Shown here: positions 44,327 through 53,824 of the stretch, one piece after another | Position numbering within the stretch: the first letter of the stretch is position 1 | Layout: each line of letters begins with the position of its first letter | From: Metabacillus endolithicus | GTDB lineage: Bacteria; Bacillota; Bacilli; Bacillales; Bacillaceae | DNA length: 64,000 nucleotides | Direction of reading: 5' to 3' | NCBI RefSeq assembly: GCF_023078335.1 | Contig: NZ_CP095550.1 | Coordinates: 1,178,001-1,242,000 of the forward strand | Program-made: the position numbers and the translations under genes | Notes under the pieces: model-generated | Databases searched by the model: none | The model's input: only the letters and a program-made list of their open reading frames with translations | What the model was told of the DNA's origin: nothing

Positions 44327-44368
44327 CGTCCCAGGAGAGATTCGAACTCCCGACCGACGGCTTAGAAG
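44327..44368 (-). repeat. attL, left 42-bp copy of tRNA-Arg 3' end
   Basis: Identical over 42 bases to the 3' part of tRNA-Arg at 53751-53792. Sequence diverges directly after it (CAAAATAATG instead of GCCGTTGCTC), so this copy is a truncated tRNA. Confidence 0.92.
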
Positions 44369-44608
44369 CAAAATAATGCGACTTTTATTAACGCTTATAG
44401 AAAGGTCATTGAACGTTCATTTTTGGCGAACATGTATAACGGTCATTTACCGAACTTTTGACCGATTTCATTATAACACGCATATATAATAGAAGAAAGA
44501 GCTTTTTACCGTATTAGTCTAATTCCTCCTGTTTATAATCTTTTAACTTCTATTTATTAGCTACTTTTAAATTAGGCAGCGCTTTTCTTCTTTGGTATTC
44601 GAAGACAA

Positions 44609-44637
44609 AAAAAGACGCAAGCTATATGTGCCTGCGC
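44609..44637 (-). terminator. Terminator of the 134-aa gene
   Basis: GGCGCAGGC / GCTTGCGTC stem (with G-U pairs) and a seven-T tail on the reverse strand, just past the stop at 44663. Confidence 0.75.
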
Positions 44638-44662
44638 CTCTGTCGTTCTCTTCTTTGTTATA

Positions 44663-45067
44663 TTAAATAGTAGCTATTACGCTGTACCCTCTGTTGTATG
44701 CGTCCTGTGTTAGCTCGTATAGTTCGCTTCTGTCCACTTTTAATGGATTGTATCGCATATATACCGATAAACCTTTATCTGTTACTACGCTTGATATATG
44801 CGCCTTTCTTAGCGTCCTTTCTCTTTCAAGATTTCTGCCAAGAAATGTAACTTCGCTGCCTTCGTCTATTTCGTCTAACAGTATTTTTATAGCTCGCATA
44901 GTAGCCATACTCCTCGTTTCTTCCGGTACATATAGAGACGCAACCTTTACAAGCTCCTTTCCTTCCGCTCTACATTCGTACACCCTTGCGCCTGCTGCAT
45001 AAGCTAGTCCTTTATCTTTTACAGATACCATTAGTACTATTAGGTAACTCTTGCGCTGTTGCCTCAT
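44663..45067 (-). CDS. Element protein of unknown function (134 aa)
   Basis: Protein MRQQRKSYLIVLMVSVKDKG..., with AAGGGGGAAGGCG upstream of the ATG. The N-terminal strand pattern (YLIVLMVSVKDKGLAYAAGARVYECR), a helix after RSMATMRAIKILLDEIDEG and a following strand (SEVTFLGRN) look like an alpha/beta fold that could resemble RNase H-like folds; I see no catalytic acidic set, so this is only a structural impression. Not recognised. It is the leftmost gene of the integrated element and has its own terminator. Confidence 0.6.
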   Translation of the reverse strand: MRQQRKSYLIVLMVSVKDKGLAYAAGARVYECRAEGKELVKVASLYVPEETRSMATMRAIKILLDEIDEGSEVTFLGRNLERERTLRKAHISSVVTDKGLSVYMRYNPLKVDRSELYELTQDAYNRGYSVIATI

Positions 45068-45288
45068 GCGCCTTCCCCCTTAGTTTATAGTAGGCGTTCT
45101 ACTCGCCCAACATAAACATAGGCGCTGCTACTCTTGCGCTTTGGTATGTAAAAATAGTTTTATAAAAAGTGTGCGAAGCGCAACAAAACTAACGAATAAA
45201 ATAACGTATTAGGACGGGAAAAAAGGTTCTTAGAGCATGGGGCTTAGTATTTTCTTAAAGAAAGCAGTAGTTAATAGAAGAATATGAA

Positions 45289-45315
45289 AAAGCGCACCTA
45301 TTAAATATAGTGCGC
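45289..45315 (-). terminator. Terminator of the sigma-like gene
   Basis: GGCGCACTAT / ATAGGTGCGC stem followed by TTTTT on the reverse strand, overlapping the stop codon of the sigma-like gene. Confidence 0.82.
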
Positions 45316-45999
45316 CATCTTCTTACGTATTCGGTTAAAGCTACGTCTTACTTGTTCATGATGTTCTAACCCCACTAAGTTAGATAGCTCCTTTAAGCTT
45401 GCGTCGGGGTATTCGTACCTTGCTAGTAGTAGTAGCCGCTCCTGCTCTGTTAACGAGGTATCTTTAAATATCTGCGTAACTATAGAATTAAAGATAACAT
45501 CTTCTTCTACGTTTACGCTCGTATCTGCTAAGAAGTCCGCAGCCTCTTCCTTTAGTCGCAATACTTGTATATTAAAAGCGCCCTGCTTTGTTTTAGTATT
45601 CGTTCTTATAAGGTCTATAGCTCTGCGGTTACATACGAGTAGTAAAGTCTCATAAAAGTAAAAATCGTCGTAATGGTTGTACTTTTCGCATAGTTTCCAC
45701 GCCTCTTCTAAGAAAATACTTTCGAAGTCTGCAGCGCATAGCTTGCAATTATTCCACCTATGTCCCCACGATTCCGCCTTCTTTCTTAATATACCTGCGA
45801 GATGTCTTAATAGCTTATCTTGCGCTACTTCTGAGCGTGTTAAAGCGTACTGCTCCCATAATTTCTCGACTTGTAGTACGTGTGCAGACAAACTAGGGCG
45901 CTTTTTATTTCGACGCTCTAGCCCTTCCCGTTTTGTTTCCGTTTTTGATTTCATAGTCTCTTGTTGTTTTAGTGCGACTTTATCATACAGTTTAGTCAT
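45301..45999 (-). CDS. Sigma-70-family-like protein of the element
   Basis: Protein of 232 aa. A basic N-terminal 45 residues precede a region-2-like segment (FESIFLEEAWKLCEKYNHYD, then FYFYETLLLVCNRRAIDLIR) with the DLIR end typical of sigma region 2. A region-4-like helix-turn-helix lies near the C-terminus (LTEQERLLLLARYEYPDASLKELSNLVGLEHHEQVRRSFNRIRKKM). Several Cys (NNCKLCAADF) lie ahead of region 2. Such small sigma-like proteins occur in phages and phage-like elements as late or transfer regulators. It could direct transcription of the element's own genes; no target promoter is identified. Confident of fold, not of target. Confidence 0.72.
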   Translation of the reverse strand: MTKLYDKVALKQQETMKSKTETKREGLERRNKKRPSLSAHVLQVEKLWEQYALTRSEVAQDKLLRHLAGILRKKAESWGHRWNNCKLCAADFESIFLEEAWKLCEKYNHYDDFYFYETLLLVCNRRAIDLIRTNTKTKQGAFNIQVLRLKEEAADFLADTSVNVEEDVIFNSIVTQIFKDTSLTEQERLLLLARYEYPDASLKELSNLVGLEHHEQVRRSFNRIRKKMAHYI

Positions 46000-46156
46000 G
46001 TGCCACGCCCCCTTTCAGAAAGGATAGGCGCAGTACACCACTTAACTTGGTATATATATATATCTGCGTCGATTATTGCGCAGCAATTGTTAGCTATAGT
46101 TCTAGTTAGTGTACCGTCTAGCCATGTTAGCTCAACCTAACACGGCTCTTCAACGC

Positions 46157-51870: not shown

Positions 51871-52170
51871 AGTTTTCGTTTATGCAGTACCTATGAAAGT
51901 TTTTTACTTCGATTCTATGTTTATGCTAACCTATAACGCTCGCCTGTCAGTTTTAGCCTTGCTTGATGTATCTCTTTTCGATTCCTTCGCCTCACTGTCT
52001 TACCCACTCACGTAGTCTTCGTGTTCTATTTAATCGACTCAGACATCAGAAAGTAGCTTCATGCGTTCTCTCTATCGTCTTGCGACTCTCTTCGTAGCAA
52101 TATTTTTCATGTCGATAAAATTGGACGTGCGTGTACATATATTGCTGTGTCCCCTTTGTAAAATTGCAAC
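51871..52170 (-). ncRNA. Possible small RNA or tiny-ORF transcript
   Basis: About 300 bases with no ordinary gene but a strong terminator at the left end. On the reverse strand there is AAAGGGGACA then ATG (near 52140) for a 30-codon frame MYTHVQFYRHEKYCYEESRK..., and a 28-codon basic frame (MGKTVRRRNRKEIHQARLKL). Either a non-coding RNA or a micro-protein transcript. Low certainty. Confidence 0.3.
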
Positions 52171-52179
52171 ACTGCTTTT

Positions 52180-52389
52180 TTAGAAAAAAGAAAAAATGAA
52201 CAATCCTAAAATAACCATGGCTGCTAGGAAATTTATTAATACTTGTACCCTGTCATCACCCATTGCCATTTCTCTTAAACTTGACGCTTGATAAAGAGTA
52301 GCTATTATAGCTATAACCACTAATACAGTATTGTCTCCCCAATACCTATACGCAGTATAAGCTCCTAGTAACGTAAAAATAAAACCCAT
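52180..52389 (-). CDS. Small two-helix membrane protein of the element (69 aa)
   Basis: Protein MGFIFTLLGAYTAYRYWGDN... with AGGAGGT upstream of ATG. Two or three hydrophobic segments (NTVLVVIAIIATLYQASSL, VLINFLAAMVILGLFIFSFF). No family recognised. Lies next to the integrase gene but has its own ribosome site and no clear terminator before the 51871-52170 region, so the two may be one transcript. Confidence 0.6.
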   Translation of the reverse strand: MGFIFTLLGAYTAYRYWGDNTVLVVIAIIATLYQASSLREMAMGDDRVQVLINFLAAMVILGLFIFSFF

Positions 52390-52546
52390 TGTAAACCTCC
52401 TGTATAACGAAGTAATTATAAGTTGTCATCATATAGAGTATATTGTAGGCTGAGGGTAACTGATAGTGGTACATTTAACCTAAACAGGTTTATATTAGTC
52501 ATTCTTATAATCTATTAGTATTTAGAAAAGATTTGAAGTAGAAATA

Positions 52547-52574
52547 AAAAAGACGGCTTGTTAGACCGTCGTAT
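52547..52574 (-). terminator. Terminator of the integrase gene
   Basis: ACGACGGTC / GCCGTCT stem followed by TTTTTT on the reverse strand. Confidence 0.8.
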
Positions 52575-52598
52575 ATTTTCGAACATATTATATTTAAT

Positions 52599-53616
52599 TT
52601 ATAAAAACTTACGTAGATTTTCTGCAATCTCTTCTTTATCAAGATGTAGGTATTGACTAGTTACAGCTAAATTACTATGACCTAGTGCTTTAGATATTTC
52701 CGCAATATTAGCGCCTTTTTCAAGTAAATTCTTTGCAAATCCTCTACGTAAAGCATGCGGATTTATGTTCTTTAATCCGTATTCCTTAGCGTATTTGTTC
52801 AATCTTTTTTGAATATTATTATGGGTTTGGCTAGTCGCTATAATGCTTCCCTGCTTAGTAATAAACACATAACTATTTTTATGACCGTATTCCTTGCGTA
52901 TTGCGTCATTCTGTTTAATTAGTACGGATAGCAAGCGGTTAAGAGTATCATCAATAGGTAATAGAAGTTGGTCGTGGTTCTTTACAATGTTGCCATCTAT
53001 CTTTAAAAGGTTGTTCTCTAGGTCAATGTGGCGATTCTCTAGATAAACAATTGTATTTATACGTAAACCTGTCTTAAACATTAGTAATGCAGCTGTAGCG
53101 TCTCGTAGCTGTACATAATCATTTAGATTAAGAACTGATAACAAAACTTTAACGTCACGCTCTGCAGCTCCTTCTTTTACTATGTTGTCTACTTTAATAT
53201 TTATTGGACGCCAAAACTTGTGCTCTATCCAACTGTTATCAAAACAACGAGACAGAAATGCTTTTAAGCACTTGAGGCGAGTTAACTTCGTTTGCTTTGA
53301 TACGTCCATACTAGCGAGCCATTGGTATACATGGTCAGCATTAAGCTCTTCTAAATATTTTTTTAACAGTTTCCGCAAAATGCTTTACATATACGTTATA
53401 GTCGCTTATGGTACGTGGACGATTACCGCTAATCTCCATTTGACGTGATATAGTCGCTAGTGCTTTTTCGATTGTTATATGGTCAGTCAACCGGTCTGTG
53501 TTCCGTTCTCTTGACCGACTCACCTTGTTTACCAATTGCGTCGTAGACTCGGATTCACCCATAAACAATCCGTTCAAATCTTCTGTAATTGTAAGTATCG
53601 CTTTCTTTTTTGTCAT
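52599..53616 (-). pseudogene. Tyrosine integrase of the element, frameshifted at an A7 run
   Basis: Site-specific recombinase. The N-terminal part (MTKKKAILTITEDLN...) carries a SAM-like core-binding start ending YVKHFAETVKK. The second frame continues KYLEELNADHVYQWL and holds the catalytic residues: Arg in FKTGLRINTIVYLE, HALRRGFAKNL (HxxR), and ALGHSNLAVTSQYLHL with nucleophile Tyr. The frames meet at 53358-53364, a run of seven A on the reverse strand where six would restore one frame of 338 aa. All catalytic residues are intact in frame 2. It lies 134 bases from the tRNA-Arg attachment site. Confidence 0.88.
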
Positions 53617-53750
53617 ACAAAAAAACCTCCTATGCGTTAAAAATCATTGAGTCAGTTTCGGCACTAAATTCATCATTGACCGATACATTGACCGTTTCAT
53701 TTAACGTCATAAAAGGTTAATTTTGCGAGCTTTATCGCTCTTTTTCGCGA

Positions 53751-53824
53751 CGTCCCAGGAGAGATTCGAACTCCCGACCGACGGCTTAGAAGGCCGTTGC
53801 TCTATCCTGCTGAGCTACTGGGAC
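53751..53824 (-). tRNA. tRNA-Arg (anticodon UCU), attachment site of the element
   Basis: Full cloverleaf of 74 bases: acceptor GTCCCAG / CTGGGAC, D arm GCTC...GAGC, anticodon stem ACGGC / GCCGT around loop CTTCTAA (anticodon TCT), T arm GGGAG TTCGAAT CTCTC. CCA is not encoded. Its last 42 bases are the attR copy of the element repeat, so integration kept the gene functional. Confidence 0.95.

Follow-up and report, generated by a model that had tools for sequence, protein, structure and literature searches.

The 64,000-nucleotide (nt) stretch of Metabacillus endolithicus analysed here (contig NZ_CP095550.1, positions 1,178,001 to 1,242,000), called the window below, carries at 44327-53792 an element of 9,466 bp, about 7.8 kb without an insertion sequence, integrated at a tRNA-Arg gene. 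It holds a tyrosine integrase, a serine resolvase, a sigma-like factor and several small genes, with its main open reading frames (ORFs) on the minus strand (Table 1). Between two of these genes lies a 58-nt mimic of the GTPase-associated centre of 23S rRNA, placed shortly before a hydrophobic ORF of 66 amino acids (aa). This rRNA-like stretch, the most unusual part of the element, is missing from the initial annotation. The perfect 42-bp attachment repeats described there are as stated, and an empty site was found besides in two congeneric genomes, G016 and G006, where the joined outer flanks of the element align uninterrupted over 760 of 808 positions (94%) and 731 of 802 (91%), respectively. 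That this is a genuine integrated element we regard as practically certain. An extra 5' half of tRNA-Arg(TCT), an older remnant, is found at 53951-53979, upstream of the intact tRNA; it is present at both empty sites too and therefore lies outside the element, so that it was rejected as the trace of another one.

A BLAST search with the element brought out a 50-nt stretch at 82-84% identity in its own genome and in several congeners (14 candidates scored per genome). The own genome has 14 other places at 82% over 50 nt to the mimic, and the four that were inspected all proved to be 23S rRNA. With cmscan, the stretch matched RF02541 at 44.4 bits (E 3.8e-12, 551 bases searched), over model positions 1094-1147 of 2925; this is under the gathering cut-off of 50 bits, and no whole rRNA gene is present. 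When the 10.4 kb with the whole element were scanned, the mimic was absent from the matches at E up to 5. Membership in a known Rfam RNA was rejected, the large-subunit (LSU) rRNA being the sole match and under its cut-off. The mimic corresponds to E. coli 23S positions 1051-1108, comprising helices H42, H43 and H44, and E. coli numbering is used throughout. A passage of PMC3592554 describes the H43/H44 piece, 1051-1108, as bound in the ribosome by L11 and by thiopeptides such as thiostrepton.

Comparison of four sequences (the element and host, Paenibacillus and enteric 23S) indicated that all 16 rRNA pairs can form in the mimic, seven of them with both bases changed. None of 500 shuffles equalled these pair counts, and sliding the partners destroys them. 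One of the seven doubly changed pairs, 1090-1101, is unpaired in host and Paenibacillus 23S. Like the 23S domain, the mimic has the H42, H43 and H44 pairs, the H43 loop TTAGAnGCA, the H44 loop GTAATA and the 1082-1086 mini-loop, its loops being those of the rRNA except for A1070, which is G. Unlike it, the mimic stands outside any rRNA operon, in a mobile element and before a small hydrophobic ORF, and has its own closing-helix sequence. It works like one rRNA domain and is not an rRNA gene. Pairs have changed while the folds were kept, which argues for selection on the fold rather than for a dead fragment, and we are highly confident that the domain was selected to fold like the GTPase-associated centre. 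Binding of the mimic to L11 is reasonably probable.

The compact mimic was found in none of 396 other genomes of the order and none of 397 other genomes of the phylum, two overlapping samples searched with a pattern that excludes T at 1101 and would miss mimics carrying it. The one compact match in IMG/VR reads as a true enteric-type 23S, and a second compact pattern gave none there. Among the order and phylum genomes and the IMG/VR data searched, the insert-free form is found in this element only. A plasmid search returned 487 records; each of the 12 listed matches over about 50 nt, and these are presumably real 23S copies.

Relatives of another shape are present in bacterial viruses. Searching phages with the mimic brought up matches in 41 records. 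Of the best 40, 25 cover all 50 nt and resemble 23S (eight are so annotated, and most are short or bacterial records), 14 are larger phages in which the H43 half alone matches, and one has its match in another part. The larger phages are Xanthomonas XacN1 and XbC2, Serratia BF, six Erwinia SNUABM phages, Kaldavass, Aeromonas 4_4572 and Pseudomonas Milchi, some appearing twice; seven of these 14 rows were inspected with their annotation. Several "phage" records with an apparent host 23S (e.g. PQ800148.1, OR844775.1, MZ092003.1) are probably contaminations or misassemblies.

Pattern scans of IMG/VR gave 51, 25 and 20 stretches; the second and third scans each repeated one stretch already known, in the third case a true 23S. 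The H44 mark TTTGGCGTARYAGCRC, allowing up to three mismatches, occurs 73-348 nt downstream in 47 of 51 distinct pieces, in 36 of them with none; the four others are a true 23S (L088), a piece that is cut off (L082), L081 and L089. In the reverse test, starting from the H44 pattern and made among the matches listed (three further pieces were too short for it), the H43 hairpin was found upstream with at most two mismatches in 41 of 51 pieces versus none of 250 control windows, and with at most three in 47 of 51 versus 5 of 250. In all, at least 100 sequence-distinct viral RNAs have both loops, 75-397 nt apart, one of them at a locus edge. They share with the mimic the H43 and H44 loops, covarying stems and a variable closing helix, and differ from it by an inserted domain between the H43 and H44 marks.

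Covariation was measured on the 72 of 100 viral RNAs that parse without an insert in H43, against shuffles (1000 for the first pair) that ignore relatedness among the RNAs. All 72 have a standard pair at 1058-1080 (mean of the shuffles 32.8, highest 47), 67 have one at 1082-1086 (mean 38.2, highest 50) and 70 at 1057-1081 (mean 50.9, highest 59); pair 1059-1079 is invariant. For the outer closing helix, 64 of 99 RNAs reach a score of at least 6, versus 13.7% of 2945 swapped arms. In the search patterns, loop letters are prescribed, in one of them also base 1058, and the 3' partners are left free, so that loop conservation comes partly from the choice of hits. Nine viral loci scanned against Rfam match no family at the RNA, apart from a weak LSU rRNA match in two. 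In one IMG/VR contig of 17.6 kb (L030), a viral-type mimic at 4936-5200 (-) is accompanied by an RNase P RNA gene and several tRNAs.

Table 1. Features of the tRNA-Arg element, in window positions.
Feature	Position	Strand	Basis or relatives
Distal 42-bp attachment repeat, copy of the tRNA-Arg 3' end	44327..44368	.	identical to 53751-53792
134-aa protein	44663..45067	(-)	distant relative in G001 locus, 32.5% over 120 aa
232-aa sigma-like factor, signature gene of the element family	45301..45999	(-)	TIGR02937 2e-7; alignment A6
105-aa protein	46551..46868	(-)	phrog_20386 (unknown function) 5.5e-14
Serine recombinase/resolvase	47530..48111	(-)	PF00239 1.9e-37; 88% to M. malikii locus
IS1182-like insertion, 1.7 kb, transposase in two frames	48298..49987	(-)	17-bp perfect terminal repeats
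66-aa small hydrophobic ORF, behind the mimic	50120..50320	(-)	ORF; no convincing family match
GGGGTG, Shine-Dalgarno-like	50329..50334	(-)	pairs in computed folds with 3' arm of the mimic's H42
58-nt mimic of 23S rRNA GTPase-associated centre (L11/thiostrepton-binding domain)	50353..50410	(-)	cmscan RF02541
Conserved non-coding block	50485..50525	(-)	85% over 41 nt with G001
94-aa protein	50654..50938	(-)	relative in G001 locus, 58% over 91 aa
63-aa protein	50959..51150	(-)	relatives in G432 and G450, 38% over 66 and 55 aa
205-aa charged protein	51168..51785	(-)	relatives in G432 and G450: 32% over 198 aa; 33% in alignment A7
69-aa hydrophobic ORF	52180..52389	(-)	ORF only; no family
Tyrosine integrase, two frames (53341-53616; 52599-53378)	52599..53616	(-)	PF00589 1.2e-30
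tRNA-side 42-bp attachment repeat, within tRNA-Arg(TCT)	53751..53792	.	perfect repeat
tRNA-Arg(TCT)	53749-53825	(-)	ARAGORN

The initial annotation had named a tyrosine integrase, a serine recombinase and a sigma-like factor, and had left every other gene unrecognised. The recombinase is confirmed by its Pfam match. The integrase is rightly assigned to its family, but its coding is split over two frames, which the initial annotation missed. Its relative in G432 (L108), 88% identical over 252 C-terminal residues, is a single frame, and in G450 both parts are in one frame, judging by coordinates. The break in the element may be decay or an assembly error: the window's folC-, lon- and clpX-like ORFs, names we presume, are each in two frames as well (10049-11391, 25181-27522 and 29773-31102), and the assembly may therefore carry indel errors. 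A related integrase at a tRNA-Arg in G017 (L022, contig 86) is likewise in two frames, broken at another position, which may reflect common decay or recoding.

The sigma-like factor matches TIGR02937, but at 30.8 bits, under the curated cut-off of 42.9, so that membership in the sigma-70/extracytoplasmic function family is not established by the score. An AlphaFold2 model of it has a mean pLDDT (predicted local distance difference test) of 60, with confidence in the C-terminal helices only, and no significant sequence match was found in the PDB. None was found in viral contigs. At the limits set, the sigma-like, 105-aa and resolvase proteins had no match in phages (nor did the 105-aa protein by tblastn in phage records), the integrase had one 30% match, and no relative of the 134-aa protein was found in plasmids. 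Homology of the 205-aa protein to proteins of 236 and 254 aa, at 27 and 19% identity, is unsupported. Between the 69-aa and 205-aa ORFs, about 400 nt (51786-52179) lack a good minus-strand ORF and may hold an RNA unit.

That all remaining genes are unrecognised was not right, as the sequence between the 66-aa ORF and the resolvase is an IS1182-like insertion. Its two transposase pieces match NF033551 at 2.2e-73 (247.8 bits) and 2.3e-27 (96 bits); being separated by frame, each is below the curated whole-protein score of 270. The terminal inverted repeats are present, and so are multiple copies, with 13 places at 95-97% identity in G016 among the matches listed; no second copy was seen in the own genome among the best 40 of 68 candidates. 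The suggestion of a decayed element holds in part, as the split integrase and this insertion are signs of partial decay.

A conserved non-coding block, GCTGC..GTTCC..GG....CTCAGGGGG, stands upstream of the resolvase gene in five loci: in the window, in L021 (about 5230-5290, located by eye), in L041 (1497) and L109 (10474, minus strand), both located by pattern, and in L020 (about 6000-6045, minus strand). By the same pattern it was not found in L108 or L110-L114. It contains hairpins whose pairing, by eye, is kept across loci, and could be a resolution site, a transfer origin or an RNA. A second non-coding block lies behind the resolvase gene, at 47129-47208, with 83% identity over 81 nt to the G001 locus.

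Searching other genomes for the same gene set, as had been proposed, did reveal related loci in other Bacillales, at tRNA-Arg, tRNA-Leu and tRNA-Val, whose flanking repeats stand 8.1-14.5 kb from each other. With a two-row profile, the sigma-like factor was recovered from 8 of the 397 genomes searched in the order, its own included, and from 7 of 136 genera; a scan of genome contigs returned Neobacillus citreus and M. malikii. The M. malikii copy (L021 2113-10283) is at a tRNA-Leu, between 57-bp repeats (98%) 8,114 bp apart, and that of G432 (L108 4073-12311) is at a tRNA-Arg(TCT), between 48-bp perfect repeats 8,191 bp apart, with relatives of the resolvase, the sigma-like factor and the 205-aa and 63-aa proteins. 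Both resemble the window element in integrase, resolvase, sigma-like factor, tRNA site and repeats, here 8.1-8.2 kb apart, and differ from it in their cargo, in which no rRNA mimic was seen. G450 has the gene set of G432 and adjoins a tRNA-Arg. Three more loci are linked to the element by a 28-33% sigma-like match only: G390 (tRNA-Val, repeats 8.2 kb apart), G217 (repeats 13.4 kb apart, no tRNA found) and G417 (tRNA-Leu, repeats 14.5 kb apart, a second integrase near the far repeat). In G265, a search for repeat pairs of 28 nt or more found none, and G255 has a serine integrase and no recognised flanking pair. Cargo varies: besides ORFs that fit no family, there are one HNH-like match (E 0.006) and one match to SWIM/SEC-C (1.1e-6), each below its cut-off. 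The M. malikii copy encodes a helix-turn-helix (HTH)/replication-like protein of 323 aa (phrog_1835, 4.1e-40, with weaker replication-initiator matches), no counterpart of which was seen in the window element. We are in little doubt that these loci form a family of compact Bacillales integrative elements, defined by integrase, resolvase and sigma-like factor and changing in their cargo; relaxase, terminase and capsid genes were recognised in none of them.

The mimic lies between a terminator-like hairpin (50648-50667, overlapping the 3' end of the 94-aa gene) and the start of the 66-aa ORF, whose ATG is preceded by a Shine-Dalgarno-like GGGGTG eight bases before it. The minimum computed for the 100-nt leader has the 3' arm of H42 paired with this Shine-Dalgarno and the rRNA fold broken (z -3.9; of 200 shuffles, one was as good). 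Transcripts of 76 and 84 nt have H42 in their computed minimum, with pair probabilities of 0.61-0.66; it is lost from 90 nt on, once the Shine-Dalgarno is made. Shuffles of the tail reached as low a minimum in 3 of 300 cases. The model used takes in neither tertiary contacts nor ligand. Because H42 can pair instead with the Shine-Dalgarno, a switch stabilised by a ligand, L11 or a thiopeptide, is favoured.

In such a switch, the 58-nt RNA would be the sensor domain in the 5' leader of the 66-aa ORF, which encodes a hydrophobic and probably membrane peptide. With the rRNA-like fold held by free L11 or a thiopeptide, the 3' arm of H42 would be occupied and the Shine-Dalgarno free, and translation would be on; with no ligand, the arm would pair with the Shine-Dalgarno and translation would be off. 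As a proposal built on computed folds, control in cis is tentative, and several observations weigh against it. No sigma-70-like promoter was called directly upstream of the mimic. H42 is nearly absent at 62, 66 and 70 nt, and at 76-84 nt the exact rRNA pairs have probabilities of 0.34-0.37 in H43 and 0.20 in H44 (for comparison, 0.83-0.98 and 0.06-0.08 in the host 23S piece). Constraining the full leader to the rRNA fold costs 15.3 kcal/mol relative to its minimum. The observed arm pairing is matched by 19 of 300 tail shuffles, and by 126 of 300 when GGGGUG is kept; the shuffle controls back the competition between H42 and the Shine-Dalgarno only weakly. Finally, the compact form is a single copy in all that was searched and no relative of the 66-aa ORF turned up among 248 other genomes of the order, which leaves a cis switch without comparative support, and the viral RNAs may act in trans.

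This last point leads to a reading just as tentative as the cis switch, in which the mimic would be a free or processed RNA taking up L11, a translation factor or a thiopeptide, as the viral RNAs would do too, and the 66-aa ORF would be separate. The viral class looks free-standing: a tRNA gene lies within 700 nt of 51 of 100 of these RNAs, versus 21 of 75 control windows taken from these loci, and in five of the seven annotated phage loci the RNA occupies a gap between genes, the two others having a short hypothetical ORF annotated over it. Against this reading, no terminator-like site was called between the mimic and the 66-aa start, and the mimic has an arm complementary to the Shine-Dalgarno. 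Taken as a whole, our best explanation is a tRNA-Arg element with a cargo unit made of the mimic as sensor and the 66-aa ORF, to which we give a probability of roughly 0.45; in it, we infer transcription, L11 binding, the switch, the function of the peptide and the route of transfer.

The element would be inserted at tRNA-Arg by its tyrosine integrase, and we infer that its transfer is borrowed. As the initial annotation held, known transfer or capsid genes are not recognised in it: the ORFs scanned against Pfam, PHROGs, NCBIfam and PADLOC matched neither relaxase nor terminase nor capsid families, some small ORFs being run against part of the libraries only. It shares with integrative conjugative and integrative mobilisable elements (ICEs and IMEs) a site-specific integration at a tRNA with direct repeats, but no relaxase or type IV secretion gene was found among the same ORFs, nor any capsid, terminase or packaging-interference gene, as would mark a prophage or a phage-inducible chromosomal island. 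Thus it integrates as an IME or a phage satellite does and fits neither definition. Of the readings offered at the outset, an unclassified type that borrows its mobility fits best, although it is not a singleton, having relatives in other Bacillales. A deletion derivative of a known phage or ICE was not adopted, as other tRNA genes carry loci whose core is similar.

Packaging by a helper phage, which would make it a phage satellite, is unlikely; it would agree with the size of the element, the tRNA sites, relatives in several genera, antirepressor-like genes in two loci (presumably of the Bro-N type) and the phrog_1835 protein of the M. malikii relative, but no terminase, capsid or packaging gene was recognised in the ORFs scanned, and the own genome has a single weak terminase match (E 7.3e-4, one PHROG model). 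We find it equally improbable that a conjugative element mobilises this one through an origin of transfer that was not recognised. Relatives occur in several families despite no recognised relaxase, and the non-coding block in front of the resolvase might serve as that origin; against this, no MOBT relaxase was found in the own genome, in a search confined to that type. A captured host 23S fragment without function, conceivable as mobile DNA might pick up rRNA pieces and as one compact copy is known, is very improbable, since seven pairs are changed on both sides and none is broken, and the bases differing from the host (G1058, partly fixed by one search pattern in the viral set, G1070 and C-G at 1082-1086) are each seen in viral RNAs as well.

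A literature search, with preprints and most subscription journals outside its reach, revealed no such RNA or element. The mimic and its viral relatives fit no class in the Rfam scans made or the literature searched. We give even odds to the broader proposal that a new RNA class, present in many bacterial viruses and in this element, imitates the GTPase-associated centre so as to capture or sense L11 or the factors or drugs acting there, and became a translation switch in the element. That both this element and large phages carry such RNAs suggests that mobile DNA may imitate the ribosome to sense or catch its parts. If true, imitation of the L11/thiopeptide site would give phages and elements a new means to disturb, or to sense, the translational state and the stringent response. 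The viral RNA class is large, strongly covarying and directly testable with RNA and purified L11. With the element family, a small system is at hand for studying the movement of elements that have no recognised relaxase or capsid gene.

Among known systems, leaders of ribosomal-protein genes imitate rRNA binding sites, as in the L1, L10, L20 and S15 types. The arrangement described here resembles them in having an rRNA-like site in a presumed leader and a competing pairing with the Shine-Dalgarno. It differs in that no ribosomal-protein gene follows the mimic, the downstream gene being the 66-aa hydrophobic ORF, in that the site imitated is that of L11, and in that the carrier is a mobile element.

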